From the IMG/VR virus record IMGVR_UViG_3300031974_001640, positions 1 to 28,171 of that record: DNA of 28,171 nucleotides; one strand, 5' to 3'. Made by a program: the position numbers and the translations under genes. Position 1 is the first letter of the stretch, and every line of letters starts with the position of its first letter. Origin of the DNA: a virus. Under the pieces are notes generated by a model. That model saw only the letters and a program-made list of their open reading frames with translations, was not told the origin of the DNA and made no database searches. Below, one piece after another: positions 1,424 through 28,171 of the stretch.

Positions 1424-3616
1424 ATGTCTTTGAAATCTTTAATGGATTATACTTTTGTTAGTAAGTACGCACGTTGGATTCCAGAAAAGAAACGTAGAGA
1501 AACTTGGAACGAGGCAGTAGATAGAGTCAAGCAAATGATGCTTGAGCAGTATGCAGATAAATCAGAAGTCTTACCAGAAATCGAGTGGGCTTATGAACAA
1601 ATGCGCAAAAAGAAAGTTCTTGGCAGTCAGCGCGCTCTACAGTTTGGCGGTTCACCAATCTTTAAACACAATGCGCGCATGTATAATTGTATTGTGTCAT
1701 ACTGTGATCGCATAAGGTTTTTCCAAGAGTGCATGTATCTACTTCTGTGTGGATGTGGTACTGGATTTTCTGTGCAAAAACATCACATTGGTAAATTACC
1801 AGACCTTCTACCAAAAAAAGAAGGCAGCAAAAAGTATGTCATTCCAGATACCATTGAGGGCTGGAGTGATGCTGTTGGTATTCTTGTGTCCAGTTACTTC
1901 GACCAATTTCTAGGCCATGAACTATTTGAAGAATACAATGGAAAGAATGTAAACTTTGATTACAGCCAAATTCGTCCCGCTGGATCATATTTAAAGTCAA
2001 GCGGCGGAAAAGCGCCGGGGCCAGAGCCACTAAAGAAAGCTCTAGCAAGTATTAGAAAAATTTTAGATGAAGCATTAAAGAATGGACAAAAAAGACTCGA
2101 ACCAATTCAGGCATATGACATTGTTATGCATACTGCCGATGCTGTTATTTCCGGTGGTGTACGTCGGAGCGCTACTATTTGCGTGTTTAGTCCAGATGAT
2201 ACCGCAATGGCAACCGCAAAGACCGGAACATGGTTTATTGATAACCCGCAGCGTGGGCGGTCTAATAATAGCGCACTCCTTGTGCGCGATGAAACTACTA
2301 AAGAGCAATTCGCAGAGCTGATGAAGTCCGTCAAGGAGTTTGGCGAGCCGGGATTTGTGTGGGCAGACAGCACGGAACTGCTGGTTAATCCTTGTGTTGA
2401 AATCGGAATGTGGCCCGTTTGTGAAAAAACTGGCGAATCAGGATGGCAGGCATGTAACCTGTCAACCATCAACTGCTCCAAAATCAAGACGGAGCAAGAC
2501 TTCTTTGATGCTTGTCGCGCTGCTACAATCATCGGAACACTACAGGCAGGTTTCTCAAAGTTTGAATATCTTGGCGAAGCATCAGAGCGTATTATCGCGA
2601 GAGAAGCTTTGCTTGGGGTTAGCATGACAGGAATCATGGAGGCTCACGATATCTGTCTTGATCCAACAATCCAGAAGCGCGGCGCAAATATTGTCAAGAA
2701 AACTAACAAGAAGATTGCCGAAGCCCTTGGAATCAATCAGGCGGCACGTACTACCTGCATCAAACCAGAAGGTACATCTAGCTGCATTCTTGGAACATCC
2801 AGCGGAATCCACCCACATCACGCCAAGCGATACATTCGTCGCGTGCAGGCGAACAAAATGGAGCCAATTTACAACTATTTTAGCTCTATAAATCCTCGCG
2901 CCTGTGAAGAAAGCGTTTGGAGCAACAATGAAAGTGATGACGTAGTAGCTTTTTGCGTGGAGGTTAAGGATGGCAGTAAGACCAAAAACAAAGTAGATGC
3001 AATTCAACTGCTAGAATACGTAAAATCTACACAACAAAGCTGGGTATTAAATGGAACAAATCCAGAATTATGTACTCAGCCTTGGCTAAATCATAATGTT
3101 AGCAATACAATCAACGTCAAAACTGAAGAATGGACAGAGGTTGAAAAATATATTTATAAAAATAGAAAATACTTCTGTGGTATTTCTCTCTTGCCAATTT
3201 CGGGCGACAAAGACTACCCACAGGCCCCATTTACTACAGTTTATCTGCCAAGCGAGCAGGTTGCCCACTACGGAGACGCTTCATTGTTTGTGAGCGGTCT
3301 TATCGAGGTAGCTCTTACTCTCTGGGAAGACAACTTGTGGGCGGCCTGTGACAGCCTGATGGGTGTTGGAGAAAAGATTAAGGGCAACGGAAAGAAGGCT
3401 TGGAAAGAGCGATGCGAGAAATTCGCGGCCAAATATTTCGACGGAGACCTAAAAAAGTTGACATACTGCATGAAAGATGTGTATAATTGGAAGGAGTGGG
3501 TCGATATGAATAGAGAATACAAAGATGTTGACTTCACTAATGTTATTGAAGAAACTAATAATGTAAAGCCAGAACAAGAATGGGCATGTTCGGGCGGCAA
3601 ATGCGAAATCATATAA
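1424..3616 (+). CDS. nrdJ: class II (adenosylcobalamin-dependent) ribonucleotide reductase, monomeric type
   Basis: A 730-aa enzyme that makes deoxyribonucleotides from ribonucleotides using coenzyme B12. The radical-site loop is NPCVE (N322, C324, E326). Putative redox pair cysteines are C89 in MYNCIV and C344 in ACNLSTINC. The C-terminus ends in a C-x4-C swinging-arm pair (CSGGKC). Length and tail match the Lactobacillus leichmannii RTPR type (about 740 aa), so the substrate is probably an NTP; this last point is inference. AGAGGA at 1411-1416 sits 7 bases before the ATG. No second reductase subunit or radical-generating protein is visible, as expected for class II. The gene is separated by 33 bases from the small-gene run upstream and sits beside virion-type genes. 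It supplies dNTPs for the phage replication module downstream. Confidence 0.93.
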   Translation: MSLKSLMDYTFVSKYARWIPEKKRRETWNEAVDRVKQMMLEQYADKSEVLPEIEWAYEQMRKKKVLGSQRALQFGGSPIFKHNARMYNCIVSYCDRIRFFQECMYLLLCGCGTGFSVQKHHIGKLPDLLPKKEGSKKYVIPDTIEGWSDAVGILVSSYFDQFLGHELFEEYNGKNVNFDYSQIRPAGSYLKSSGGKAPGPEPLKKALASIRKILDEALKNGQKRLEPIQAYDIVMHTADAVISGGVRRSATICVFSPDDTAMATAKTGTWFIDNPQRGRSNNSALLVRDETTKEQFAELMKSVKEFGEPGFVWADSTELLVNPCVEIGMWPVCEKTGESGWQACNLSTINCSKIKTEQDFFDACRAATIIGTLQAGFSKFEYLGEASERIIAREALLGVSMTGIMEAHDICLDPTIQKRGANIVKKTNKKIAEALGINQAARTTCIKPEGTSSCILGTSSGIHPHHAKRYIRRVQANKMEPIYNYFSSINPRACEESVWSNNESDDVVAFCVEVKDGSKTKNKVDAIQLLEYVKSTQQSWVLNGTNPELCTQPWLNHNVSNTINVKTEEWTEVEKYIYKNRKYFCGISLLPISGDKDYPQAPFTTVYLPSEQVAHYGDASLFVSGLIEVALTLWEDNLWAACDSLMGVGEKIKGNGKKAWKERCEKFAAKYFDGDLKKLTYCMKDVYNWKEWVDMNREYKDVDFTNVIEETNNVKPEQEWACSGGKCEII

Positions 3617-3625
3617 GGAATTAAA

Positions 3626-4603
3626 ATGGCTGAATTAATTGTAAACGTTAACCCCGACTCTACCTACGAAGATGGCGACATCCTGTGTGCTTTCAATGAC
3701 AGAAATGTACAATGTACACATGCTCAACAGATTTGTCATCATCAACACGCTGGATTTACTAACGATGGCTTGCGCCCAGAAGGTAAATCTCTGGCATTTC
3801 TTGATTGTGTCTATCAGTATCGTTTTGAGCGCGTAAGTGCTACTCAGGTAAAACGTGTTGAAACCGACCATCTTGGAAATGTTTTAGCAGAAGAAACCTT
3901 TGGTAAGCCCGATATTGACGTAGATCAGTTCGTGGGTCGCCGTCTGAAGCACGCCAAGCACAGGATTTTTGGTACTCCGGGCGCAGAAATCTGGCATGGT
4001 GGGCGCAGCGACTTCTCTGAGGCTGCTGTTGCAAAGGCTTGGGATATTGTTCAGAATAATTGTGACTGCCGCAATACTCCCGGCCCATGTCCGTGTTGTG
4101 GGCAGGATCATACCCTGTGGCCGATGGGCAAGCTAGATGTTCGACATTTTCTGTGTACTCAGTTGGATAACTTCAGTGACGTAGAATCTGCTGCTATGAC
4201 TTCAGACTATAGCGCTACATTCCAAGCGGGCGATACTATTACTGATGCTGACGGCGGCGTAGTTACTCCAAGCTGGAGCGACGAAGGCTTATGGGAACAC
4301 CCCACTGGAGGGTGGATTTACACCAAAGACCCAGAAACAAACATCGTTACGGTTACTTTCAAGAAAAGAAACATGAAGGTTTCGGACTGGAGAACTACGG
4401 TTCTTGACACAATCCAGAAAACTGAAGCAGAAGTTCTTGATAGAAATGTTATGGTTGGACGAGAAGCCGTCTGTAACTGCGACATGGCTCCTTGGCTACA
4501 AGGAAACGATACTACTTACAAGGTTTTGGATCATGTTCCATTCAGCGATCCGACCGCCCTGCATAATAAACGTGACAATCGCCCCGGTGAGAGACTAGCT
4601 TAA
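3626..4603 (+). CDS. cysteine-rich protein, possibly structural
   Basis: 325 aa, family not recognised. Twelve cysteines and several histidines are spread along the chain, with a dense cluster NNCDC...GPCPCCGQDH near residues 145-160, CTHAQQICHHQH near 30-41 and VCNC near the end. This arrangement suggests bound Zn or Fe-S, or disulfides in an extracellular particle. AAGGA at 3615-3619 has good spacing to the ATG. The stop overlaps the start of the first beta-helix gene by one base (TAATG), so it is co-translated with probable fibre genes and may belong to the same virion structure, for example as an adaptor or assembly factor. That role is inferred from position only. Confidence 0.7.
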   Translation: MAELIVNVNPDSTYEDGDILCAFNDRNVQCTHAQQICHHQHAGFTNDGLRPEGKSLAFLDCVYQYRFERVSATQVKRVETDHLGNVLAEETFGKPDIDVDQFVGRRLKHAKHRIFGTPGAEIWHGGRSDFSEAAVAKAWDIVQNNCDCRNTPGPCPCCGQDHTLWPMGKLDVRHFLCTQLDNFSDVESAAMTSDYSATFQAGDTITDADGGVVTPSWSDEGLWEHPTGGWIYTKDPETNIVTVTFKKRNMKVSDWRTTVLDTIQKTEAEVLDRNVMVGREAVCNCDMAPWLQGNDTTYKVLDHVPFSDPTALHNKRDNRPGERLA

Positions 4604-6549
4604 TGGCAACAGTAACAAAAACTATCGGAACCGCAAGCCGTGATTATTCTACTATCACGCTGTGGGAAGCCGATCTAGATAATTTCTCAACAGTATACGC
4701 CAATGGAGACGACGCTGTTGGCGAATGTTATAATGATAGCGACTTTAATGAAGTGGTTAACATAGACGGCGGCGGAACCTCTATCACCGGACTAAATAGT
4801 ATCAAGCTTACCGTTGCTGAGGCAGACAGGCACGATGGAACAGCCGGAACTGGCGCCAGAATGGTTTATGATAGCAAAATACAGATGTATTCTGATAAAA
4901 ATATTGAAGTATGCTGGCTAGAAATAGACTGGGGTGGGACTAGCTCTGGCGGCAATCAGTTCTCTATAGTATATACCCATAACAATTCTTATCAGCAAAA
5001 AATCGCCAATATGCTGGTACATGATGCGCAGACTGCTTCTACGGGAAGAATGATTCAAGGTAAATATGGATATCTAACTGTTGCAAATAATATTATTTAT
5101 AATCTAACTCATACCAGCGCGTATAGAGCGTATGGAATATATGTAGATAGCTATAGACCATCTTACGCTTACAATAATACTGTACATAATATACAGTCAA
5201 CGCACCCCAATGCCGCATATACTTTTGGTATCCATATTGCATATTCTAATAATGTTAGAAATAATATAGTTACTGAAGTAGGTAGCGCGGTTTATTCTGG
5301 TTGTTTTGGAAATGTTGCTGCTGGAACTAATTCTAACAATATGTCCACAGACAATACTGCTCCCGGCCCAAACTCTCTAACAGAAGTAACGGCATCCGCC
5401 CAGTTTGTTTCTGTTGTTGCGGGCGCGGAAGACTTGCATCTCGCAACAGGATCAGAGGCAAGAGGCGCGGGCGCTAATCTTGGTTCCGCCGGTGATATTG
5501 TTCAATCTGATATTGATGGCGTATACAGAGGTTCGGTTTGGGACATTGGGGCTGACCAAACCCCAGCTACGGTTACTAAGACTATTGGCTCTGCGGGGAG
5601 AGATTACAGTACGATTGGTTTATGGGAAGCAGACTTAGATACCCAAGGTGTATACGCTAATGGAGATAGCGTGGTTGGAGAATGCTATAACGATAGCACG
5701 TTTACCGGTGGGGCTAACATTAACGGTGGAACAACAGTGGGATTATCTTCTGTAACACTATCTGTAGCAGAAGGCGAAAGGCATGATGGCACATTAAATA
5801 CTGGTGTAAAAATAAAACCAGCTTATATTATTGCTGGACGATTAATAAATATATCTAGAGACAATCTTACAGTAGAATGGCTAGAATGTGAGGTTAATGG
5901 AGCTTCTACATATGCCCACACACCGGCTATTGCTTTCAATATATATAATAGTAATAATAGTGCTAGATATCTTGTTTTAAAAGGGGAAAACAAGGTGTAT
6001 CCCGCTCAAACCCCTTATCTTGCCGTTGTGGGCGGAAACAATAATATTTTACACAATAACATTGTCTATGGAACAGCAAACGGAAATAATGGAGGCGGAA
6101 TAGCGGATAGCTATCGGGCATGTAGCGCCTTTAACAATACCATATATGATTGCAATTATGGATATAAGGCTGCTTCTGCTGATCAAAATCAACGCACAAT
6201 AAAAAATAATTTATCTATTGGTAATAATGTGGATTTTTATCCGTCTACTGTAACTGTTGGTTCTAGCAGCAACAATGCTTCTTCCGACTCAACGGCAACA
6301 GCGTTTGGTGGATCAGATCATGTGACAGGAGCTGTGACAGAAGATCAATTCATCTCTATTGTCGCGGGCGCGGAAGACCTCCATCTATCAGGAAGTTCTG
6401 ACGCTATAGATGCTGGCGCGGACTTGACAGGAACCGTAGACGGTGTAGAATATGATATAGACGGACAGCTTCGTGCTGGCCTGTGGGACATCGGCGCAGA
6501 CGAATTATTAGGCGGACACATTAGAAGACTGCTACTAGGGATTGGTTAA
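4603..6549 (+). CDS. two-module beta-helix protein (probable tail fibre/spike)
   Basis: 648 aa made of two copies of a ~320-aa module (residues 1-321 and 322-648). Each starts with a cap containing IG-(T/S)A-(S/G)-RDYSTI-x-LWEADLD, a GECYND strand and a RHDGT-x-x-TG turn. A variable Asn-rich core follows, with short strand repeats such as NNIIYN or NNTVHN, typical of right-handed parallel beta-helices. Each ends with EDLHL...GA-x-L...DIDG...WDIGAD, a tail resembling the end of 'choice-of-anchor Q' beta-helix proteins. No signal peptide and no separate attachment domain; the module begins at residue 1. It overlaps the previous and following genes by one base. Likely a virion surface protein that contacts host glycans; a glycan-cleaving activity is possible but no catalytic site is identified. 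Confidence 0.75.
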   Translation: MATVTKTIGTASRDYSTITLWEADLDNFSTVYANGDDAVGECYNDSDFNEVVNIDGGGTSITGLNSIKLTVAEADRHDGTAGTGARMVYDSKIQMYSDKNIEVCWLEIDWGGTSSGGNQFSIVYTHNNSYQQKIANMLVHDAQTASTGRMIQGKYGYLTVANNIIYNLTHTSAYRAYGIYVDSYRPSYAYNNTVHNIQSTHPNAAYTFGIHIAYSNNVRNNIVTEVGSAVYSGCFGNVAAGTNSNNMSTDNTAPGPNSLTEVTASAQFVSVVAGAEDLHLATGSEARGAGANLGSAGDIVQSDIDGVYRGSVWDIGADQTPATVTKTIGSAGRDYSTIGLWEADLDTQGVYANGDSVVGECYNDSTFTGGANINGGTTVGLSSVTLSVAEGERHDGTLNTGVKIKPAYIIAGRLINISRDNLTVEWLECEVNGASTYAHTPAIAFNIYNSNNSARYLVLKGENKVYPAQTPYLAVVGGNNNILHNNIVYGTANGNNGGGIADSYRACSAFNNTIYDCNYGYKAASADQNQRTIKNNLSIGNNVDFYPSTVTVGSSSNNASSDSTATAFGGSDHVTGAVTEDQFISIVAGAEDLHLSGSSDAIDAGADLTGTVDGVEYDIDGQLRAGLWDIGADELLGGHIRRLLLGIG

Positions 6550-9404
6550 TGGCAACAATTACTAAATCTATTGGTACTTCCAGTCGCGATTATTCTACAA
6601 TCACGGCGTGGGAGGCCGATCTTGATAACACTGGAATCTACACCAGCGGCGATGATGCTGTTGGGGAGTGCTATAATGATACGGCATTTGATGAAAGTGT
6701 TGGTATAGATGGCGGTTCAACCGTTGGACTGAACTCTATAAAATTGACCGCTGCCAATGGAGAAAAACACGATGGTACAGAAGGAACTGGTGCTAGAATC
6801 GTGTCGTCTACTCAAATCATATTTATCGGAACGGGTGGAAGTGTTGATAAAACTATTAGCTTTATAGAAGTAGATAAAACAGCTGCTGCAAATGCTAATA
6901 TTACTATGGTCAGCCTAACTGGTTCAGCGGGATCTGGCGCGACTAATAATCTACACGCTTGTATTGTTCATGGTGCCGCAGTCAGCACTCAGAACTACAG
7001 AAGCTTGAAGGGGGTCGCAACAGGGTCCGTTGCTGGCATTACATATAATGTAACTAATAATATAGTTTATGATATTACTCACGCTTCGGGTGGGAACCCT
7101 GCGGGTATAACCACGGCCACTGGGAATATCTATATCTATAACTGCACCGTTCACGATATTACTGAGCCGGGAGGAACTACAGGTTCGTGCTTTAGCGTAA
7201 CATGCAACGATTTGAGAAACTGTATTGCTACAGATTGTAGTGGAAACGATTTTGCTACTGGCACCATTTCTGGTACAGAAAGTAACAACTTATCGTCCGA
7301 CTCAACCGCTTCTGGCACAGGTTCTCTAACGGGCAAAACAGCCGCCAACCAATTTGTGTCCACGGTCGCGGGATCAGAAGACCTCCATCTTCTATCTACG
7401 GCGGATGCCGTAGGCGCGGGAGTAGACCTCGCCACAACCAGCGTAGACATCAATGGCAGTGACCGCAACGCCCTCGCCGCCACCGTTTGGGACATCGGCG
7501 CGCACCAATATGCTTCCACGGCAAGTATCGGAACAAGTAGCCGCGACTACTCCACTATCGCGTTGTGGGAGGCGGATTTAGATGATACGACTATCTATGG
7601 GGCTGGAGCAAATGCGGTTGGTGAGGTGTATAACGATTCATCGTTTACCTTTTCATCTGCAATCACTATAGATACTAACGTCACACTGTCTTCAATAAAA
7701 CTTACCGTACCGAAATCTGAGCGACACGACGGAACGGCTGGAACTGGCGCAAAGTTAGTACCAGCACCAGCAAGCCTTTACGCGAGTCACTGTCTAATAA
7801 TAGAAGATCCAAATGTAAGAGTAGAATTTTTAGAATTTGAATTTGATCAATTTGCTGGATATGATGTGTTTGGCATTTGGTTGAGAATCAGTAGAGGCGC
7901 CACAAATTGTGATGTTAACGGATGCTTATTTCATTCTTTAGAAAGTGGTTCTGTTTCACCAGCGCTTGGTGTTTATGTTCAATCCAATGTGACAGACACA
8001 AGAGTTCATAATAATTTCTTTATTACTATGGGCTACTGTATAAGAGCGTCTTATGCTGGATATGCATATATTTACAATAACACAGGTTATGGCTCTAGCA
8101 TAACCAATAGATCGCGAGTTGGTATTGATTATATTAACTTCTCTAGTAATGTTGATATACGTTCTAATATTATGGCTAATTTCCAAACCGCCGATATAGA
8201 CACAGGGTGGACGATCTCGCCAACAACAAACGCCACAAGCGATAGTTCTGGACAGACAACGGGAATAACTGCCTCAGATCATTTTGTTTCTGTTGTGAGC
8301 GGTAGCGAAGATTTACACTTACTTGCTTCATCCTCTCTTAGGGGCGCTGGTCAGGATCTAGGAAGCGATTATGCGATAGATATAGACGGCACAAACAGAG
8401 ACGCTTTTACTGGAACCACTTGGGACATTGGCGCAGATCAAGTCTATATTACGGCAAGTATCGGCACTTCATCGCGCGACTACAGCACTATTGCGTTATG
8501 GGAAGCGGACTTGGACGACACAAGTTTGTATACGAGTGGGGACGATGCGGTTGGTGAATGTTATAATGATAGTACTTTTGCTCTAACTGACCATATAACT
8601 CTCAGAGGTGGAGGCGTAGTCGGACTGAGCAGTGTTACAGTAACAGCCGCTCAAGCAGATCGCCACGATGGAACGGCAGATACTGGAGTTAAGATAACAT
8701 TTAATGCATTTAAAGCCTTTTACGCCGAAGCGGGGAAAGATGCATCAACAAGAATACCAACAATAGTAGAATGGTTAGACATTGACGGCCAAGGATTTAG
8801 TAGAACATTTTTGATTGCATTTTATGACAACACTTTAAACTCAGCACTAAGAAATTGCATAACTAGAGGTCCGGGAGATCAGGTTAACGCATATTTACAA
8901 TCATATAACAACATAGCTTACGGAAGTAGTGGCGGATTTTTAACTAATGTGAACTTTGGAAATAATAACGCTAATCAATACAATAATACTATTCACTTAC
9001 CTGTTGCTTACCGAGTGACATATATTGGCATTGGAACTGTGAATATTAAAAACATTTTAGCAACATCAGATAATCCTCATCCAACATACGGCTTATTTAG
9101 CGGAGATTACTTGTCATCTGCTAACAATGCCAGCAATATATCCTCTGACGGAACTGCTATCGGAACTAATTCAAAAACAAATCAACCAGTCTCAAGACAA
9201 TTCGTGTCCACACTGAGCGGTAGCGAAGACTTACACCTCATATTCAAATCCGCCGCCATTGACGCTGGCGTAGACTTAGGAACAACGCCCGATGGTGTTC
9301 AGTACGACATCAACGGCAAAGACAGAGATACAGAAAATAGTATTTGGGATATTGGCGCACATGAGTATGGCGACAATGTTATATTTGGACTTTTAAGAGT
9401 ATAG
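6549..9404 (+). CDS. three-module beta-helix protein (probable tail fibre/spike)
   Basis: 951 aa with three copies of the module of the preceding gene, starting at residues 1, 322 and 634. The caps are nearly the same in all copies (IGTSSRDYSTI-x-x-WEADLD at the start, GSEDLHL and WDIGA(H/D) at the end), while the middle of each module differs strongly. The second module has GEVYND where the other four have GECYND. The core strands carry short Asn-rich turns (VTNNIVYDI, YIYNNT, NIKNIL), as in parallel beta-helices. The start overlaps the previous stop by one base, and the gene ends just before dut. With its two-module neighbour it probably forms repeated subunits of a host-contacting appendage. 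The fold assignment is by pattern; the function is inferred. Confidence 0.75.
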   Translation: MATITKSIGTSSRDYSTITAWEADLDNTGIYTSGDDAVGECYNDTAFDESVGIDGGSTVGLNSIKLTAANGEKHDGTEGTGARIVSSTQIIFIGTGGSVDKTISFIEVDKTAAANANITMVSLTGSAGSGATNNLHACIVHGAAVSTQNYRSLKGVATGSVAGITYNVTNNIVYDITHASGGNPAGITTATGNIYIYNCTVHDITEPGGTTGSCFSVTCNDLRNCIATDCSGNDFATGTISGTESNNLSSDSTASGTGSLTGKTAANQFVSTVAGSEDLHLLSTADAVGAGVDLATTSVDINGSDRNALAATVWDIGAHQYASTASIGTSSRDYSTIALWEADLDDTTIYGAGANAVGEVYNDSSFTFSSAITIDTNVTLSSIKLTVPKSERHDGTAGTGAKLVPAPASLYASHCLIIEDPNVRVEFLEFEFDQFAGYDVFGIWLRISRGATNCDVNGCLFHSLESGSVSPALGVYVQSNVTDTRVHNNFFITMGYCIRASYAGYAYIYNNTGYGSSITNRSRVGIDYINFSSNVDIRSNIMANFQTADIDTGWTISPTTNATSDSSGQTTGITASDHFVSVVSGSEDLHLLASSSLRGAGQDLGSDYAIDIDGTNRDAFTGTTWDIGADQVYITASIGTSSRDYSTIALWEADLDDTSLYTSGDDAVGECYNDSTFALTDHITLRGGGVVGLSSVTVTAAQADRHDGTADTGVKITFNAFKAFYAEAGKDASTRIPTIVEWLDIDGQGFSRTFLIAFYDNTLNSALRNCITRGPGDQVNAYLQSYNNIAYGSSGGFLTNVNFGNNNANQYNNTIHLPVAYRVTYIGIGTVNIKNILATSDNPHPTYGLFSGDYLSSANNASNISSDGTAIGTNSKTNQPVSRQFVSTLSGSEDLHLIFKSAAIDAGVDLGTTPDGVQYDINGKDRDTENSIWDIGAHEYGDNVIFGLLRV

Positions 9405-20453: not shown

Positions 20454-21476
20454 ATGATAGTCACCTATATTAGGTCGTCTAGCTATGGTAATTATGATTA
20501 CTGTCAAATGCAGTATTTTATTACTTATGTCTTAGGACACAGATCGCCGTCTGGCAAAAAGGCACAGTTAGGAACGATGGTTCACAAGGTCATGGAGGTT
20601 CTTGCTGCTTGCAAAAAATGTCTTCAAGATAATCCAGAAGAAAAAACCTTGACGATCACAGATGATGCGCTTGGTGAAATAGAATTTACAAAAAGAAAGC
20701 TATACACTAAGAAGTTTGTAGACGATATTTTAGACCAAAGCTACGCTCATTATCAAAAAGACTGTATTCACAAGTATTATCCTGCCGATCTAAAGTTTTG
20801 TAAGAACCTTACAGAAAAAGCGCTAACATATAATGACGGCCAGTTCGACCCTCGCAACAGAGATGTCGTAGATGCAGAGCCTAATTTTGATTTGCCGATA
20901 GAAGAAGACTGGGCTAAGTTTGAATACGAAATGCCAGATGGAACTAAAGCAAATGGTCAGCTTGCAATTAAAGGTACAATCGACTTAGTGACACAAATTG
21001 ATGATGGTGTCATTGAGGTAATCGACTGGAAAACCGGACAGCGCAAGAACTGGGCAACAGGCGAAGAAAAAACTTACGAGAAATTGCTTGAAGATCCACA
21101 GCTGTTATTGTATAACTATGCTATATCTAGATTGTATCCAGATTACGAGCAGGCTATCATGAGTATTTTCTTTATTCGTGATGGCGGCCCATTTAGTATG
21201 TGCTTTGATAAGTCTGATCAAGAGAAGTTTTTAGATATGCTTAGAAAAAGATATCAACAGATACAGAAGAACACTAATCCGAGGCTTGTTTCTCCTACTA
21301 GACGTGACTTCAGATGTCAGAAGCTATGCCATTTCTGCAAAACAGATTGGCCGGGCGAAAACAAAAGCATGTGTCAGCACGTTGAAGACAAGCTAAGAAA
21401 AGAGGGCTATGACAAAACTGTTGCGGACTGTACTAGAGAAGGATTTGACATTGGATATTATGAGGCACCGGGCTGA
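20454..21476 (+). CDS. Cas4/RecB-like PD-(D/E)XK exonuclease with Fe-S cluster
   Basis: 340 aa. It probably resects DNA ends for recombination and replication. Signature residues are H44 in TMVHKVME, D177 in KGTIDLV, D191 and K193 in EVIDWKTG, and the Q216-x3-Y220 motif (QLLLY). C17, C288, C292 and C295 (plus C307) are arranged as in the Fe-S-cluster nucleases of the Cas4/AddB/RecB group. AAGGAG at 20443-20448 gives the start. No cas1 or cas2 and no repeats lie nearby, so it is a phage DNA-processing enzyme and not part of a CRISPR system. It sits between dNMP kinase and a glycosyltransferase, inside the replication operon. Exonuclease direction is not predictable here. Confidence 0.88.
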   Translation: MIVTYIRSSSYGNYDYCQMQYFITYVLGHRSPSGKKAQLGTMVHKVMEVLAACKKCLQDNPEEKTLTITDDALGEIEFTKRKLYTKKFVDDILDQSYAHYQKDCIHKYYPADLKFCKNLTEKALTYNDGQFDPRNRDVVDAEPNFDLPIEEDWAKFEYEMPDGTKANGQLAIKGTIDLVTQIDDGVIEVIDWKTGQRKNWATGEEKTYEKLLEDPQLLLYNYAISRLYPDYEQAIMSIFFIRDGGPFSMCFDKSDQEKFLDMLRKRYQQIQKNTNPRLVSPTRRDFRCQKLCHFCKTDWPGENKSMCQHVEDKLRKEGYDKTVADCTREGFDIGYYEAPG

Positions 21477-22357
21477 TGGCACAATTAATTGATATAAAAA
21501 AAGATTTTGACTTAGGTAACAAGATTCTACTTGACACTGCCGAAAGTCTTGCTAAACTACTTGATGACAGCTTTCGCGTTGTGGTTAAATATGATCTTCA
21601 AGATTATACATTTCCAAAAGACGGCAAGAAGCATATCTTGTTCTCGCTATCTAATGAAACGCATCAGTATCCAAGATACGTGGATGAAGAAAGCGTGTTT
21701 TTGATTTTTCACAACTACTCCATGTTAGATAACTGGGGATATCCTGTTGTAAATCATAAATTCTTTCCGCTTCCCGTGGGAACTTTTATTAATAATATTG
21801 AACAAAAGATAGAAGAGATTAAACCTATAGACGAAAGAGAATATGACTTCTGTTTTGTTGGTCAAATCTCGCAATATGGCACGAGAGATAAATTTCAGAA
21901 ATGCCTAGATGACATGATAGAGAAAACAGGAGATAAATACAAGCATTATGTAAAATATACTTCTGCTTTTGGAACAGGATTAGATCATCAAGAATATGTT
22001 GAGCTATTGAATAATTCTAAAATCTGCCTGTGTCCAACTGGAGCTTTTAGTGATGAGTCTTTTAGATTCTTTGAAGCTATTAAACTTGGCGCTTTTCCAA
22101 TGGTTGAAAGGCTTCCAAGGTTTTGGTATTACGAAAACGCCCCGTTGTTCTTTACAAAGTGGCAGTTCCTAGATAACCATCTGGAAGAATGTCTAAAATT
22201 AGTAAATAATAGTGATATTTCGGTGCTAACGAAGAACCTGTCTGACTATAATAATACGATATTGGAACCCGATAACTTGTCGCAAATTTTGAAGAAAATA
22301 ATTGATGAAAAACAAGAATACACCAATAAACTGCAAGACTCACTTCAGTCTTCTTAA
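21476..22357 (+). CDS. exostosin-like glycosyltransferase
   Basis: 293 aa. The region YVELLNNSKICLCPTGA...ESFRFFEAIKLGAFPMV (174-210) matches the exostosin/GT47-like nucleotide-sugar binding half of GT-B enzymes; E200 in FFEAIKLG is the likely ribose contact. The N-terminal half has a second Rossmann-like layout (KKHILFSLSNETHQ, then VFLIFHNYSM). At 293 aa it is short for a full two-domain GT-B enzyme. Acceptor and sugar are unknown. It is placed in the replication block, one base overlap after the Cas4-like nuclease and 53 bases overlap with the polymerase. Modification of DNA bases, of virion proteins or of host surface sugars are all possible. No signal peptide is seen, so it acts in the cytoplasm. 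Confidence 0.75.
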   Translation: MAQLIDIKKDFDLGNKILLDTAESLAKLLDDSFRVVVKYDLQDYTFPKDGKKHILFSLSNETHQYPRYVDEESVFLIFHNYSMLDNWGYPVVNHKFFPLPVGTFINNIEQKIEEIKPIDEREYDFCFVGQISQYGTRDKFQKCLDDMIEKTGDKYKHYVKYTSAFGTGLDHQEYVELLNNSKICLCPTGAFSDESFRFFEAIKLGAFPMVERLPRFWYYENAPLFFTKWQFLDNHLEECLKLVNNSDISVLTKNLSDYNNTILEPDNLSQILKKIIDEKQEYTNKLQDSLQSS

Positions 22358-23897
22358 AGGTTTTTCTAATCCAGACAGACTGGCAAAACTGTGCGCTTCA
22401 TATGGTTATGAGGCGTGCGTTCTTGCCGATATCAACACTCTTTCTGGCGCTGTGAACTTTCACCAAGCCTGCAAGAAAAACGATATAAAGCCCATTTTGG
22501 GATTAGATACTGAGCAGTTCTTACTTATTGCTAAAAATAAAGATGGGTGGCTTGACCTAATCAACTACTCGTCTGAAGAACAAAACATTGACACCCTTAA
22601 AAGAATAGCCGAAAATGGAAATATTCTCTTCATCACATCAGAAGATAACGCAGCTTACAAGAAGATGTGGGGCAAGAACTACTTTCATTACAATTATGTA
22701 GATGATGCTGTGTATTATTGCACTCAAGACGAGGCAGATTTGCATAGAATCATTCTATGTTCTGGCATGAAAACAAACATTCCAAAGGTTACGGCAAAGC
22801 TGCAAAAGGGTGAAGATTTTGAGAACAAGCATTTCTTTACAAGTGAAGACTATTGTCTGAAACAGCCACGCGATGTGAGCGACGACGAGGAAATGTTTGA
22901 TGCTATTGCTGCCTGCGAAGAATATGAAATTACTGGCAAGCCGATGCTTCCAGAGTTTGATGTTCCAGAAGGTTTTGATAATGATGAATATTTAAAAGAG
23001 TTGTGTCGTCATGGCTGGAAGTCTAAGCTAGCGCCAGCCGGAAAAGTAAAAGACCCAGTTCAAAGAGATATTTATCTAGAGAGAGTCAAGAAAGAGCTTG
23101 AGGTTATCTTTAAGGCCAATCTCAGTGGTTATTTTTTGATCGTCCAAGATATTGTCAATCATGTTAAAGATCGTGGCTGGATCGCTGGTCCGGGTCGTGG
23201 CTCTGCTGCTGGCTGTTTAATATCTTATTTGGTTGGAATCACAGAAGTTGACCCAATTGAATTTGACTTACTGTTTGAGAGATTTTACAATGAGGGACGA
23301 AACACCGAGGATCATGTTTCTTTGCCTGACGTTGATATGGACGTTCCGGCTGAACATAGAGACGAAGTGATTGATTACATCAAGGAAAAGTATGGAATTG
23401 ATAAGGTCTCTCAGATGGTAACGTTTGGAAAACTACAGGGGCGAGCCGCCATCAAAGAGGTGTTGAGAATCAATGATGCTGTATCATTCTCTGAGATGAA
23501 CGCTATTACCGACAGTATTCCAGACGAAGCTAAGATTTCTGACCAGCTAGAATTAATGGACGATAAGTCTATCATTAGATGGGCTTTAGAAAATGAATCC
23601 GAGGCACTAAAAAGTTGGTGTTACTATGATGAAGAAGGAAAACTTGATGGACCGCTTTCTCACTATTTTGAGCAGGCGATTAAAATTGAAGGAACTAATA
23701 AATCCCAAGGCAAACATGCTGCTGGTGTGATTATTTCAAAACATCCTCTCGCAGAAGTTTGTCCAATGGTTAAAGACAAGAATGGCAAGATGATTGCCGC
23801 GCTTGAAATGAATGACCTAGAGGCTATGGGTCATGTCAAGTTTGATGTTCTTGGAATTGACTTGTTAAGTAAAATTATGGAAATCTGTGAGGATTAA
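22305..23897 (+). CDS. dnaE: DNA polymerase III alpha subunit, N-terminal half (PHP and palm)
   Basis: 530 aa. This chain holds the polymerase palm. GPGRGSAAG is at residues 295-303, the catalytic pair is D342/D344 in LPDVDMD, SQMVTFGKLQGRAAIKEV follows, and the third catalytic aspartate is D514 in VKFDVLG. It stops right after that helix (KIMEICED), so fingers, HhH and OB parts are absent here. They are encoded by the gene at 24803. The N-terminal PHP region is degenerate: the usual HxH near the start is replaced by residues of NCKTHFSLLKG, and TDHGN by ADINT. The ATG at 22305 overlaps the glycosyltransferase gene by 53 bases. Two non-polymerase genes separate the halves. No intein residues are seen at the break, so assembly should be non-covalent. 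Confidence 0.92.
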   Translation: MKNKNTPINCKTHFSLLKGFSNPDRLAKLCASYGYEACVLADINTLSGAVNFHQACKKNDIKPILGLDTEQFLLIAKNKDGWLDLINYSSEEQNIDTLKRIAENGNILFITSEDNAAYKKMWGKNYFHYNYVDDAVYYCTQDEADLHRIILCSGMKTNIPKVTAKLQKGEDFENKHFFTSEDYCLKQPRDVSDDEEMFDAIAACEEYEITGKPMLPEFDVPEGFDNDEYLKELCRHGWKSKLAPAGKVKDPVQRDIYLERVKKELEVIFKANLSGYFLIVQDIVNHVKDRGWIAGPGRGSAAGCLISYLVGITEVDPIEFDLLFERFYNEGRNTEDHVSLPDVDMDVPAEHRDEVIDYIKEKYGIDKVSQMVTFGKLQGRAAIKEVLRINDAVSFSEMNAITDSIPDEAKISDQLELMDDKSIIRWALENESEALKSWCYYDEEGKLDGPLSHYFEQAIKIEGTNKSQGKHAAGVIISKHPLAEVCPMVKDKNGKMIAALEMNDLEAMGHVKFDVLGIDLLSKIMEICED

Positions 23898-24113
23898 ATG
23901 AACGCTACAAGAGAAGAGTATATGTCTGTGATTTTTTCTGGTTGCAGCATTGACTATAAAGATATTACGGTGTGTAATCTAGCTAATTATTATCCAAGAT
24001 TGGCAAGATCGAATGAATATCAAGTGTGGTCTGACCGATACGGGGAACATCACTTATTTAAAAATATCGACGACGCAGTTGATAAATTTTTGGAACTGAA
24101 AAAAAGGAAGTAA
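23898..24113 (+). CDS. 71-aa unknown protein between the polymerase halves
   Basis: Not recognised. The ATG directly follows the stop of the polymerase N half, with GAGGA at 23889-23893. The protein has an N-terminal helix (ATREEYMSVIFSGC) and a C-terminal part (YQVWSDRYGEHHLFKNIDDAVDKFLELKKRK) that reads as a strand pair plus a helix, a small alpha/beta unit. No catalytic motif and no homing endonuclease motif. Its only clue is the place: it lies in the gap of the split polymerase with the proofreading exonuclease, so it could help join the subunits or be a neutral passenger. Confidence 0.65.
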   Translation: MNATREEYMSVIFSGCSIDYKDITVCNLANYYPRLARSNEYQVWSDRYGEHHLFKNIDDAVDKFLELKKRK

Positions 24114-24114
24114 T

Positions 24115-24810
24115 ATGGCGAATTATCGTGACATTATTGTGTTTGACTTTGAAACCGGTGGAGCTAACCCCTACACATGTCAGCCAACGCAGATTGCTGC
24201 CGTGGCTATTCATGCTAGGAAGCTAGAGCTACAGCCGGGAGGCGTATTTAACAGCGAGATTCGCCCGATTATCGACGACGATAAGGCAATCAAAGCGGGT
24301 GTTGCACCGCTTGAAGACGAGGCTCTGCGGATCACAAGAAAGAACAGAGACGATCTAGCAAAGGCCCCGCTACCAAAGACCGTCTGGAAGAAGTTTGCGC
24401 AATTTTGCGACAAATACAACTTCAAAAAGACTAACTACTATGCGCCAATCGCCGCAGGATACAACATCAATGGCTTTGACATGCCAATCGTTGAACGCAT
24501 GTGTCAACAATATGGCCCTACTCATGCTAAGAATGGTAGACAGGGCATTTTTAATCCAATTTTTACCATAGATGTTATGCAGCATATCTACTGCTGGTTT
24601 GAAAATAACACAGAGGTAAAGGGTTATGGCATGGATTACTTGCGCGACTATTTTGGAATGAGTCAAGCTAGTAAAGATAATGCTCACGATGCGTTGCAAG
24701 ACGTTAAGGATACCGCCAATATCATGATTAAGTTCATGAAATTGCAAAGAACATTGTTGCATAAAGTTAAATTTGAAAAGACATTTGCGAACGGGGATAT
24801 TTATGTCTAA
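24115..24810 (+). CDS. dnaQ: DEDDh 3'-5' exonuclease (DnaQ-like proofreading subunit)
   Basis: 231 aa. It removes misincorporated nucleotides. Exo I is VFDFETGG (D11, E13), Exo II is AAGYNINGFDMPIVERM (D122) and Exo III is NAHDALQDVKDT (H191, D196), which makes it the DEDDh class of DnaQ/epsilon and PolC exonucleases. AAGGA at 24104-24108 sets the start. It lies between the two polymerase halves and overlaps the second half by 8 bases, so the three polymerase-related chains are translated together. It is close in size to cellular epsilon but has no clear C-terminal alpha-binding tail beyond about residue 205. This fits the degenerate PHP domain of the polymerase. Binding to the polymerase is inferred from arrangement. 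Confidence 0.9.
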   Translation: MANYRDIIVFDFETGGANPYTCQPTQIAAVAIHARKLELQPGGVFNSEIRPIIDDDKAIKAGVAPLEDEALRITRKNRDDLAKAPLPKTVWKKFAQFCDKYNFKKTNYYAPIAAGYNINGFDMPIVERMCQQYGPTHAKNGRQGIFNPIFTIDVMQHIYCWFENNTEVKGYGMDYLRDYFGMSQASKDNAHDALQDVKDTANIMIKFMKLQRTLLHKVKFEKTFANGDIYV

Positions 24811-26344
24811 TTTTGACATTAATAATTTTGAAGACGAAGAAGTTTGGGATTTGATTTGCGAAGGGCGCACAAAAGGTGTCTTTCAACTTGAATCTAGCCT
24901 CGGTAAACACTGGGCTAAAGAAGTAAAACCCAGAAGCATTAGCGAATTGGCGGCTCTTATTTCTCTGATTCGCCCCGGCTGTTTAAAGGCTTATACTGAT
25001 GGTAAGTCTATGACGCAGCACTATGCAGATAGAAAGAAGGGGATGGACCCTGTTGACTATCCAGATGACTCTCTGGAGCCAATCTTAAAAGAAACCTATG
25101 GGGTTTTGGTATACCAAGAGCAGAGCATGAAGATCGCCCAGCAACTAGCTGGGTTTGATCTTAAAGAAGCAGACTCACTTCGTAAGGCTATTGGTAAAAA
25201 GAAGGCTGGACTCATGGAAGAAATGAAACAGGTCTTCATGGATGGCGCAGAAAAGCAGGGTATCATCAAGAAAGAGGTAGCGGGTGAGATTTTCTCATGG
25301 ATCGAGAAGTCTAACCGCTACGCTTTCAATAAGAGCCACGCCGTTTCGTATGCTATTGATGCGTATTGGAGCGCATATTGCAAGTGTCATAGACTAGAAA
25401 AGTTCTATGTAAGCTACATGAATCGTTCCGACAGGAAGCCAAAGCCTGAGATCGAACTCAAGCAGCTTATTATGGATGCTAAAATGGCTGGCCTAGATAC
25501 TTATCCACCAAGACTTAATCACATGCATACAAATTTTATCCATGAAAATGGTAAGATTTATTTTGGTATGCGTCACATTAAGAATGTAGGCACTAAAGAG
25601 TGTGACAAGATCGAAGAGATTAAGAAAACAGAAGATATTACTACTTATACTTGGCTAGACTGTCTTGTTAAAATTATTCATAAGGGCAAAATCAATAAGC
25701 GTGCAGCAATCGCCATGATTTCTGTTGGCGCTTTTAACGGCAAGAACAACAGAGAGTCTCGCCAGAAAATGCTTTATGAATACGATAGCTGGAATAATCT
25801 TTCTGCAAGAGAAAAAGATGCTATTGCTGAAAATTACAAAAGCTCCCTAGCTTTGTCACAGTGTGTCGAGCTTCTGCCTGACTGGGTAAAGATTAACTCG
25901 CGGCGAGCAACCGCGATAGAGGATATCAAACAGTCTCTCATTTCACCATTTTATAGCCTAGATGACGACCCCGTTTCTATTGCAGACTATGAAATCAAGC
26001 TGATGGGGTGCGCTTTGACTTGTAGTAAGGCAGATTCTGTAAATATTTCCACAAATATGTGCAAAGATGTGTCCTTGGGTACTATAAGAGGTAAAGTAAA
26101 TCTTTCTGTAATGATCAACTCTATACGTACTTATAAAACTAAGAAGGGTAAAAACCCCGGCCAAGAAATGGCTTTTTTGTGTGTTGAAGATGCGAGCGGT
26201 GAACTAGATTCCGTTACAATTTTTCCCGACGCTTTTGCGAAATATAAAGATTTATTGATAGAAAGAAACACCGTCTTCTTAGATGGCGAGGTTTCCAAGC
26301 GAGATAAAAACTCGATTGTTGTAAATAAAATTATACAAGTTTGA
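24803..26344 (+). CDS. dnaE: DNA polymerase III alpha subunit, C-terminal half (fingers, HhH, OB)
   Basis: 513 aa. It begins with a short leader (SNFDINNFEDEEVWDLICE) and then VFQLES, the motif that in intact alpha subunits follows the palm after about 50 residues. LIRPGCLKAY, TYGVLVYQEQSMKIAQ, LRKAIGKKK and YAFNKSHAVSYA (173-184) are the fingers signatures. HhH-like sequence follows, then an OB-fold at about residues 415-513 (VNLSVMINSIRTYKTKKG..., LDGEVSKRD). The chain stops after the OB-fold, so the tau-binding tail of cellular alpha is missing, and I see no clear beta-clamp motif. The ATG at 24803 overlaps the exonuclease stop by 8 bases; an upstream in-frame start would lie deep inside that gene. 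With the 22305 product the two add up to about 1043 aa, close to an intact enzyme. Confidence 0.92.
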   Translation: MSNFDINNFEDEEVWDLICEGRTKGVFQLESSLGKHWAKEVKPRSISELAALISLIRPGCLKAYTDGKSMTQHYADRKKGMDPVDYPDDSLEPILKETYGVLVYQEQSMKIAQQLAGFDLKEADSLRKAIGKKKAGLMEEMKQVFMDGAEKQGIIKKEVAGEIFSWIEKSNRYAFNKSHAVSYAIDAYWSAYCKCHRLEKFYVSYMNRSDRKPKPEIELKQLIMDAKMAGLDTYPPRLNHMHTNFIHENGKIYFGMRHIKNVGTKECDKIEEIKKTEDITTYTWLDCLVKIIHKGKINKRAAIAMISVGAFNGKNNRESRQKMLYEYDSWNNLSAREKDAIAENYKSSLALSQCVELLPDWVKINSRRATAIEDIKQSLISPFYSLDDDPVSIADYEIKLMGCALTCSKADSVNISTNMCKDVSLGTIRGKVNLSVMINSIRTYKTKKGKNPGQEMAFLCVEDASGELDSVTIFPDAFAKYKDLLIERNTVFLDGEVSKRDKNSIVVNKIIQV

Positions 26345-26355
26345 AAAGGATTATT

Positions 26356-26682
26356 ATGAATAATTGCTCTTTTTTAGGCAAGCTCAAGGAGCCTGTCTAT
26401 TCTACTAAATCTAATGATGTTGACCTAGTTAATTTTGTTCTCGAAGTTGAAGAATATAGAAAAAATAAATCAGGTCAAAAAACCAGAAGAACAGAAAATC
26501 TAAACTTTGAAGCGTGGCATACAGCCGCAATCACTATCAAAGAGAAACTTCAAGTTAACGACCTGATCCTTGTAGAGTGTACGGCGAGAAGCAATAGAGA
26601 CGATAATGACTTCTGTTATTTCAGAGTTAATAGTTTTAAAATTTTTAACAAAGAACGCTACTCAACCGAATCGGATAACTAA
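26356..26682 (+). CDS. ssb: single-stranded DNA-binding protein
   Basis: 108 aa. It coats single-stranded DNA at the fork and during recombination. The sequence follows the bacterial SSB OB-fold: SFLGKLKEPVYSTKSN for strand 1, VNFVLEVEEYRKN for strand 2, NLNFEAWHTAAITIKEKLQV for the WgktAe-like segment, DLILVECTARS for the next strand and a closing FRVNSFKIF. The ATG at 26356 has AAGGA at 26346-26350; a TTG 15 bases upstream is in frame but lacks a site. It has no long flexible acidic tail (it ends KERYSTESDN), so partner binding through a tail is weaker than in cellular SSB, though Glu and Asp do occur at the end. It directly follows the polymerase genes. Confidence 0.85.
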   Translation: MNNCSFLGKLKEPVYSTKSNDVDLVNFVLEVEEYRKNKSGQKTRRTENLNFEAWHTAAITIKEKLQVNDLILVECTARSNRDDNDFCYFRVNSFKIFNKERYSTESDN

Positions 26683-28171
26683 TGAGAAAGAAGAAAATAT
26701 TGTTTGTTTCTGAGGCTTCTTGGCTTAGTACAGGATATTCTGTCTATACAAAAGAGGTGCTTAGTAGATTAAACCAAGTTGACGAATTCGAGGTTGCTGA
26801 ACTATCTTGTTATGCAGACAGGAGTGACCAGAGAGCCAAGAATGTTCCTTGGAAATGCTATCCTAATAAACCCCTACAGGATGATCCATCTTATCAGCTA
26901 TATAAGGGTAATCCAGTAGCTCAATTTGGAGATTTGTCGTTTAATCATGTCGCGCTTGATTTTCAGCCCGATATCGTGATGGATATTCGCGACTGGTGGA
27001 TGATTGAGTTTGAGCAGCGCTCGCCATACCGTGATTTTTTTCATTGGGCAATTATGCCAACGGTAGACGCTGAACCGCAAAATCCGCAGTGGATTAATAC
27101 ATATAATTCTGCTGAATCTGTATTTGCTTATTCAGAATTTGGTCGAGACACAATGATGCGTCAATGTGACAACATTGAATTTGTAGACGTTGCGTCCCCT
27201 GCGGCAAGCGCGAACTTTGCACCAGTAGCAGACAAGCGTAAGCATAAAGAAGAAATGGGGCTTTCTCCAGATAGTGTTATTTTTGGCACTGTCATGAGAA
27301 ATCAAAAGCGAAAGCTATACCCCGACCTTCTAGCTTCGTTTAAAAAAATACTAGACAGATCAGAACAAAACAATGTTTATCTTTATTGTCATACTTACTA
27401 TCCAGATGTGGGATGGGAGCTTCCACAGCTAATCCAAGAAAATGGGTTGGCTAGTAGGGTTCTGATGACTTACAAATGTAAAAACTGCAACAATATTTCT
27501 GTTGACTTTTTTCAGAATTCTGTTCAGGTTTGTAACAAATGTAAAAGTTTTACAAATCAGGTGGTCGGAATCAATAATCCTATTGACGAAGTAAGTCTTT
27601 CCAAAATCTACAATTTGTTTGATGTATATGTACAATATGCCAACAGTGAAGGTTTTGGTATGCCCCAGCTAGAAGCCGCGCACTGTGGTCTTCCTGTTAT
27701 TTCTACTTATTATTCCGCCATGCAATCTGTGATTGACAATATTGACGGATACGGTATCACGCCGCTGTCGTACTATAGCGAATGTGAAACTGGATGCAAT
27801 AGAGCCGTACCAGACAACGAAGCATTTGTTTCTCTGGCTTTTGATATGCTAAAATCACATAAAGAAAATCCAAACTTCTTTATTGAACAAGGAGAAAGAA
27901 TTAGGCAGAATGCAGTGTCCCACTATACTTGGGATAAAGCGGCTGACGCTTGGGCTAAACGATTCCATCAAGTAGAACTTAGAGATACTGCGGAAACGTG
28001 GCTGTCTCCACCAGACATCAAGCAACCAAAACAGGGGTTCCCAAAAGGCTTAAATAATCCAATAGATATTACTAACTATATTTTCCATCATGTATTATGT
28101 AAACCTCAATGGATCGGCAATCACATTTGGAAAAGAATGTTAAAAGACTTGACATTTGGATTTAAGTGTGA
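26682..28171 (+). CDS. GT-B glycosyltransferase with an inserted zinc ribbon (cut by window end)
   Basis: The reading frame opens at an ATG overlapping the ssb stop by one base (TAATG) and runs 496 codons to the window edge without a stop. The N-terminal part starts KKKILFVSEASWLSTGYS, a GT4-style donor/acceptor domain opening. The C-terminal domain begins near LSPDSVIFGTVMRNQKRKLYP, and E323-x7-E331 in EGFGMPQLEAAHCGLPVI is the GT-B nucleotide-sugar motif. Between them is a Cys4 zinc ribbon, C266-x2-C269 and C284-x2-C287, which is not normal for this family. The end of the protein is missing from the window. Sugar and acceptor are unknown. Its place after ssb ties it to the replication operon by location only. 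Confidence 0.85.
   Translation, partial: MRKKKILFVSEASWLSTGYSVYTKEVLSRLNQVDEFEVAELSCYADRSDQRAKNVPWKCYPNKPLQDDPSYQLYKGNPVAQFGDLSFNHVALDFQPDIVMDIRDWWMIEFEQRSPYRDFFHWAIMPTVDAEPQNPQWINTYNSAESVFAYSEFGRDTMMRQCDNIEFVDVASPAASANFAPVADKRKHKEEMGLSPDSVIFGTVMRNQKRKLYPDLLASFKKILDRSEQNNVYLYCHTYYPDVGWELPQLIQENGLASRVLMTYKCKNCNNISVDFFQNSVQVCNKCKSFTNQVVGINNPIDEVSLSKIYNLFDVYVQYANSEGFGMPQLEAAHCGLPVISTYYSAMQSVIDNIDGYGITPLSYYSECETGCNRAVPDNEAFVSLAFDMLKSHKENPNFFIEQGERIRQNAVSHYTWDKAADAWAKRFHQVELRDTAETWLSPPDIKQPKQGFPKGLNNPIDITNYIFHHVLCKPQWIGNHIWKRMLKDLTFGFKC

Follow-up and report, generated by a model that had tools for sequence, protein, structure and literature searches.

The window studied here, by which we mean the whole stretch of 28,171 bases that forms the virus record IMGVR_UViG_3300031974_001640 of IMG/VR, encodes the alpha subunit of a DNA polymerase III (Pol III) not in one gene but in two. 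An upstream gene makes an N chain that holds the palm, a downstream gene makes a C chain that holds the fingers, and the gap between them is occupied by the gene of a DEDDh 3'-5' exonuclease, preceded by that of a small orphan protein, s71 (Table 1). The four open reading frames (ORFs; N, s71, exonuclease and C) are open in the window and follow one another on the plus strand from 22305 to 26344, with the outer limits, the N, s71 and C chain sizes and the gap length that an original prediction, made from the letters of the window, had assigned to them. That prediction also held the four genes to be coupled, and the junctions agree: the stop codon of N and the start codon of s71 make up TAAATG, a single base separates the s71 stop from the exonuclease start, and the exonuclease and C genes overlap by 8 bases. 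The start of N itself lies 53 bases within the 3' end of an upstream glycosyltransferase-like ORF (21476-22357).

Table 1. Features of the polymerase locus, with positions in the window.
Feature	Position	Strand	Description
Pol III alpha N chain	22305..23897	+	530 aa; degenerate PHP domain, palm, segment up to palm/fingers linker
s71, 71-aa orphan protein	23898..24113	+	start codon abuts N stop
DEDDh 3'-5' exonuclease, likely proofreading subunit	24115..24810	+	231 aa; C-terminal tail K-x-K-F-x-x-x-F
Pol III alpha C chain	24803..26344	+	513 aa; fingers, HhH, OB region; start inside exonuclease gene
N-C gap	23898..24802	+	905 bases; 651-4867 nt in relatives

The nature of the two chains is readily recognized. 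The N chain matches the Pfam families PHP (3.1e-13) and DNA_pol3_alpha (2e-71), the C chain DNA_pol3_finger (1.4e-46) and HHH_6 (2.6e-11), and both match consecutively a single PHROGs family, phrog_405 (1190 positions), with best stretches at 246-612 for N and 627-1067 for C. The locus thus has the palm with three catalytic aspartates, the fingers and the HhH of a C-family (DnaE-type) polymerase; it lacks the single polypeptide, being laid out in two frames in the window as in 385 of 385 relatives that have both sides of the junction. The window polymerase is therefore a DnaE in two genes and departs from the ordinary type. The C chain had also been credited with an OB part. Fingers and HhH stand with Pfam, while the OB part obtained no Pfam score in the window: residues 431-512 are strand-rich in the structural model, NCBIfam alignments reach residues 504-510, and in one relative (L030) an OB-fold family scored in the OB region of C, below its curated cut-off.

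The break was expected to fall in the linker that joins palm to fingers, and alignment to the Escherichia coli protein places it there. The third palm aspartate precedes it and the fingers follow it: N ends 13 residues past the motif KFDVLG, C starts 25 residues ahead of VFQLES, and a profile alignment to E. coli Pol III alpha takes N up to residue 564 and resumes with C from residue 591. The tail of N and the head of C together amount to about 18 residues, against 26 in E. coli alpha, so that little is altered beyond the linker.

The active site, for its part, has been kept. Residue counts were taken from alignment columns in 55 representatives, motif patterns that proved overly strict having given 162/197 for the palm and 162/197 for the HDA motif of the exonuclease. 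Palm residues D342, D344, D346 and D514 are present in 55/55 representatives, which upholds the view that D342, D344 and D514 are the catalytic aspartates of the N chain, and so are R127, K128, K132 and H179 of the fingers. The PHP domain is degraded: at positions 11 and 43, which we take to be metal positions, the window has lysine and isoleucine where 33/55 representatives have histidine, and histidine is absent at 43 from all 16 rows of alignment A1. Substitution of the PHP metal site is also described for Proteobacteria in the portion of PMC3919608 available to us. As for selection, ratios of nonsynonymous to synonymous substitution (dN/dS) between the window and five close relatives are 0.037-0.056 for N, 0.036-0.044 for C, 0.007-0.015 for the exonuclease, the slowest-evolving of the four genes, and 0.14-0.19 for s71, all rough values, as the synonymous distances are near or above 1 and two of the five relatives give near-identical figures.

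These observations bear on the idea that the phage makes use of the polymerase of its host, its own fragments being relics or having been repurposed (N with the exonuclease alone, for example). The degraded PHP part, with K11 and I43 in the window, would suit such a decay. Strong purifying selection on both chains, together with palm and fingers residues that do not vary in any representative, speaks against it, and we know of no use of fingers that lack a palm. We hold gene decay to be very unlikely. The AlphaFold model of the N chain alone (pLDDT, the predicted per-residue confidence, 78) has as its best matches the Pol III alpha structures 2hpi, 4iqj and 2hnh, with template-modelling (TM) scores to the query of 0.66-0.72 against the E. 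coli and Thermus alpha chains, and that of the C chain (pLDDT 72.5) also has Pol III alpha chains as its best matches.

A broken gene in an environmental record immediately raises the suspicion that a read error, a frameshift or a bad assembly join has cut an ordinary gene in two. The census of relatives answers this point. A first search gave 36 loci, 35 of which (L002-L036) have the order N, s71, exonuclease, C, with N identities of 56-100%; L034 is truncated within C, and in L030, L032 and L033 the C chain has interruptions of its own. The remaining one, L037, is a distant C-family gene in a single frame. An alignment-based walk outward brought the number to 402 viral IMG/VR loci, leaving aside the locus of the window (L001), L037, named phages and bacteria. 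Both sides of the junction are present in 385 of these, the other 17 lacking one side, and in every one of the 385 the exonuclease stands between an N frame and a distinct C frame, so that the predicted seat of the RNase_T-type gene, between the polymerase chains, is confirmed well beyond the window. Many loci come from the same contig (contigs reach up to 224 kb), and a better count is that of the 225 distinct exonuclease DNA sequences, cut copies being counted apart. The distance from N to C ranges from 651 to 4867 nt, with a median of 909, and a possible C start lies within the exonuclease gene in 147/225 distinct loci.

The controls behave otherwise. Among bacteria, the 80 nearest dnaE genes in the genome collection, at 27-32% identity, all consist of a single frame. 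A phage collection yields 1,325 records for N and 1,270 for C, all of them below 60% identity, and 8 for the exonuclease (24-26% identity); 12 of 13 named phage records examined are unbroken at the junction, the broken one being Rossellomorea phage phiT1. In the viral collection, 81 loci (L037 included) belong to other phage dnaE lineages; 71 have both sides, 10 lack one, and 70/71 are in a single frame, L581 being the exception. A few relatives do have a single break in one of the frames, in N for L219, L378 and L440 (one contig), in C for L112 and in the exonuclease for L388. A break shared by 385/385 loci with 225 distinct exonuclease sequences, while 70/71 other dnaE loci of the same collection are intact, refutes an artefact for this junction, and the probability left to it is negligible. 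Two of the findings that the prediction had said would undo it, a read error or assembly join and related phages with an intact gene and no exonuclease inside it, have both been looked for: the first is countered by these counts, and for the second 0/385 readable relatives fetched are intact. The split is real, confirmed as more than chance and not an assembly error, and none of the near relatives seen is intact.

Two genes need not mean two chains in the mature enzyme, and the products might be rejoined, either through split-intein halves flanking the junction or through splicing of the gap from the RNA. Both pieces are conserved here without a splicing element. Intein-like tails at the N ends and C starts are absent from the 34 of 35 first-set loci that can be read at both (the C frame of L034 is cut), and none was seen by eye in further printed N and C ends of relatives. 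An intein at the window junction is rejected, as both ends were read and hold no intein halves; neither the halves that mark the break of a cyanobacterial-type split-intein DnaE nor those that flank the nuclease gene of a fractured gene are there. The motif FNKSH, at which the cyanobacterial gene is split, is intact in the C chain, and the break lies in the palm/fingers linker instead, as the prediction had stated along with the lack of an intein. A self-splicing intron in the gap is likewise rejected: Rfam gives no match in positions 22000-26700 of the window at E up to 1, and in ten relatives, at gathering score, a single match, to a tRNA in phiT1. The gap moreover holds protein genes and varies widely in size. 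What keeps rejoining from being dismissed outright is that true split inteins exist in this very family, in the C chain of L032, L033 and L131 and in the N chain of L236. With no intein tails at the junction and no intron match, we consider it extremely unlikely.

These inteins deserve a description of their own. Intein halves interrupt the C chain at FNK|SH in L032:4191-7020, L033:3620-7053 and L131:8922-11775. In L236:1802-4090, which shares its contig with L475, they interrupt the N chain at GRG|SAAG, the gap there being under 100 nt. TIGR01445 (intein_Nterm) scores above its cut-off in L032, L033 and L236; the L131 case was recognized by eye. Between the halves, L032 and L033 have a nuclease-like gene of 298-302 aa, which has a weak match to DUF559 in L032 and was recognized by eye in L033. 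A contiguous, in-frame intein also lies in the fingers, at RPG|C, in L030:5093-7246 and L033:3620-5023. With these additional split inteins, some relatives encode their polymerase in three separate parts.

We now turn to the gene in the gap. The exonuclease matches Pfam RNase_T (3.7e-14) and phrog_192, the DNA polymerase exonuclease subunit of PHROGs (1.4e-23). It has the D-E-D-D-H catalytic set of the DEDDh (DnaQ/epsilon-like) enzymes, with D122, H191 and D196 in 55/55 representatives and D11 and E13 in 98%. Past the catalytic domain the chain is prolonged by the KxKFxxxF tail, conserved in most relatives (K217 in a fraction of 0.75 of the 55 representatives, F220 in 0.89, F224 in 0.87), with L223, L444 and L484 deviating. 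One might see in the tail a by-product of gene overlap; it is not merely that, because it is retained in L357, L360 and L404, where the C gene sits 2-4 kb away. By analogy with E. coli, where epsilon binds alpha, the tail may dock the exonuclease on the polymerase. In that organism the epsilon binding site is located on the PHP of alpha, according to the part of PMC3919608 at our disposal.

Of s71 there is less to say. It has no match in Pfam, PHROGs or NCBIfam, and was detected in 94/225 distinct loci and undetected in 131/225, for which reason it is rejected as a core part. The prediction had spoken of a three- or four-chain polymerase: three chains (N, C and exonuclease) are plausible, while for a fourth, s71, synteny and purifying selection are all that can be put forward. 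In L219, L220 (4018-4194), L224 and L236 another orphan gene, of 58-60 aa, takes its place, as judged by eye. These four belong to a group with a long N chain (at least 570 aa), which comprises 86/197 unique members of the family; the window is among the 111/197 with a short one. At the start of their C chain, 82/86 long-N members have a Cys-x-Cys extension, found in 0/111 short-N members, which could help hold the chains together via a metal. Other genes enter the gap here and there: in L008, L009, L032 and L034; between exonuclease and C in L011, L015 (an endonuclease VII-type gene by Pfam), L021 and L024; also in L016 (a methyltransferase by Pfam), again in L032, and in L206 (a uracil-DNA glycosylase, UDG, between N and exonuclease). 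Some of the genes within gaps look by eye like HNH nucleases.

How would such an enzyme work? A single series of closely packed genes, presumably co-transcribed, would supply both chains. N would bring a vestigial PHP and the catalytic palm, C the nucleotide-binding fingers, HhH and OB, and the two would most likely fold together without covalent rejoining, because just the palm/fingers linker is altered. A non-covalent two-chain C-family polymerase, assembled from N and C and active, is in our opinion highly likely. The exonuclease of the gap would most likely act as its proofreading, epsilon-like subunit, perhaps docking via its C-terminal tail; that it is a subunit of the two-chain polymerase we regard as probable.

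Several observations weigh against this picture. In the model of the C chain the fingers are poorly predicted, with blocks of 36-53 pLDDT, and the TM scores of this model to Pol III alpha are just 0.26-0.46 to the query (14 matches, E up to 0.001); the chain may need a partner, or the alignment (14 rows) may simply be shallow. The curated epsilon model of NCBIfam, PRK06309, gives the exonuclease 22.5 bits where its cut-off is 245, which makes this protein a distant, phage-type member of the epsilon group at best. In three of the 225 distinct loci (L357, L360 and L404) a distance of 2.0-3.9 kb separates C from the exonuclease, which shows that the genes can do without tight coupling. The census was seeded from split sequences, five of its six scans covering the nearest 80 loci each; it cannot gauge the frequency of intact genes further out, where an intact sister could exist. 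No beta clamp was found with PF02767 in 12 relatives or with PF00712 in 20, which leaves processivity unexplained; the phage may use the clamp of its host, or one that goes unrecognized. Finally, the large relatives are not certified complete, and another polymerase could be missed in them. Such another polymerase has been considered and rejected on the data in hand: the 15 related contigs of 80-154 kb each have exactly one Pol III palm, and Pol A and Pol B are found in 0/15 and 0/15 of them. In G022, the 206-kb contig of L425, two Pol III finger domains were noted, at 55229-55684 and 201284-201742.

Some of these facts would fit an arrangement in which the two chains polymerise together while the exonuclease is a separate nuclease, engaged in degradation of host DNA or in repair, that happens to share the gene cluster. 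The low epsilon score and the three loci with a distant C could be so explained. A possible sister lineage, L581, has RNase HII in its gap instead, and the gap of some relatives has taken in HNH-like genes, a methyltransferase or UDG as well. Against this stand the presence of the exonuclease in 385/385 loci, its place as the slowest-evolving gene, its match to phrog_192, and the retention of the tail in the very loci where C is distant. A separate nuclease seems to us rather doubtful, the proofreading subunit remaining the preferred role.

One may go further and see in the fission a functional architecture, that is an obligate replicase made of N, exonuclease and C, with the exonuclease held via its tail at or near the break. 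The break would then allow coupling of the polymerising and proofreading parts, and exchange of cassettes between lineages (exonuclease here, RNase HII in L581), the enzyme being modular. We mention this as an unlikely extension of the two-chain polymerase.

As to the age of the event, an 85-row tree from a quick search puts the 55 split representatives on one side of a branch with SH-aLRT support of 100. Rossellomorea phage phiT1, an isolated phage (gp20/gp18, PV767480; L410, 3986-7268), also has a C-family polymerase broken in the same palm/fingers linker; it differs in that its gap holds a 49-aa gene and no exonuclease, at 29-36% identity. It falls outside the split clade in the 85-row tree, and joining it to the clade is neither supported nor rejected (28 rows, p-AU 0.566). 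In L581:99-4533 the linker is broken as well, the gap containing RNase HII, a zinc-ribbon-like protein (below the Pfam cut-off) and a 110-aa gene. L581 adjoins the split clade with a support of 82, below the starred level, and may be a sister to the exonuclease clade; placing phiT1 and L581 together with the split clade is not rejected either (33 rows, p-AU 0.131). L582 and L530 are intact. Read cautiously, these trees suggest a single ancient fission in the history of the exonuclease clade, which L581 may share.

Phage Pol III genes may be broken elsewhere too. In L412 (Bacillus phage Jayan) the gene is broken inside the palm, where L411 (Bacillus phage PS1) is intact, and L038 (Tenacibaculum phage Larrie) has two coding sequences with odd extra tails at a palm break. 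Along the N chain of the window, matches to phrog_13169 and phrog_7513 end near residue 335-338 and that to phrog_12219 begins at 340, a pattern that may reflect palm breaks in further phage polymerases. L418 (Bacillus phage vB_BpsS-140) has at 2038-5642 an unannotated Pol III alpha frame with an apparent shift, seen by eye, within its N-terminal half.

The surroundings of the locus are those of a replication region. The tested neighbours are mostly replication genes by Pfam and PHROGs, namely a DnaB-type helicase, a primase, a deoxynucleoside monophosphate kinase, a PD-(D/E)XK nuclease and a single-stranded DNA-binding protein, together with a glycosyltransferase-like gene. Of 20 large proteins scanned in a related 80-kb contig, G001, one scores with tail tape measure families, as would be expected of a tailed phage. 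Elsewhere in the window, at 4603-6549 and 6549-9404, are two large proteins of repeated modules starting 'IGTSSRDYSTI.LWEADLD' or similar, with no Pfam match.

Bacteria copy their DNA mainly with Pol III alpha, and in each of the 80 bacterial genes checked a single chain carries both palm and fingers. Many environmental phages, forming a large assemblage, appear to replicate with the two on separate chains, so that the active site of the replicase is parted into its two halves; a single polypeptide may then be dispensable even for an enzyme as central as this. Halves that can be expressed separately would aid the study of C-family catalysis and offer biotechnology a natural split polymerase. 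The locus is also a case of a proofreading-type gene lodged inside the polymerase that it may serve, and an opportunity to understand how the fission of a gene can reach fixation when its product is essential.

How does this compare with what is known? The cyanobacterial split-intein DnaE is the same enzyme family in two genes, and Caspi reportedly described it in 2003 as broken at the FNKSH region and sealed by protein trans-splicing; the break of the window is in the palm/fingers linker, with no intein. Fractured genes, in which split inteins accompany a homing endonuclease, are said to have been presented by Dassa in 2009, and their layout resembles the C chain of L032 and L033, not the window junction. 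In E. coli, alpha is one chain and epsilon is not encoded inside dnaE, while the split of gp43 into two genes is known from a few T4-like phages that have intact relatives. Like the window, the E. coli Pol III core (alpha + epsilon) has a separate proofreading exonuclease, as set out in the available part of PMC3919608. The closest functional precedents are a split polymerase and a split reductase, both of phages. The phage replicative polymerase of Aeromonas phages 25 and 44RR is made from two genes as here, gp43A and gp43B, and the two chains of phage 25 co-purify and have polymerase activity; the portion of the source at hand (PMC2988022) assigns them to the B family, with a homing endonuclease gene (phage 25) or untranslated sequence as insert, not a proofreading-type exonuclease. 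The ribonucleotide reductase of phage Aeh1 is again a case of gene fission with both pieces kept, there by insertion, and the split NrdA is functional; it is another enzyme, in one phage, with the homing endonuclease mobE in the gap, as far as the accessible text of PMC2988022 and PMC3653736 goes. Titles and abstract starts of the openly licensed literature yielded no report of a phage in which an exonuclease gene divides Pol III alpha, and a 2024 survey, with a tally of 947 PolC-type polymerases in 18,382 tailed-phage genomes, uses the word 'split', in the part of its text available, just for tree cutting (PMC11348598). Split phage replicases of the B family are thus known; what is new here is a split in the C family, widespread, fixed in the loci seen, and with an exonuclease gene in the break.

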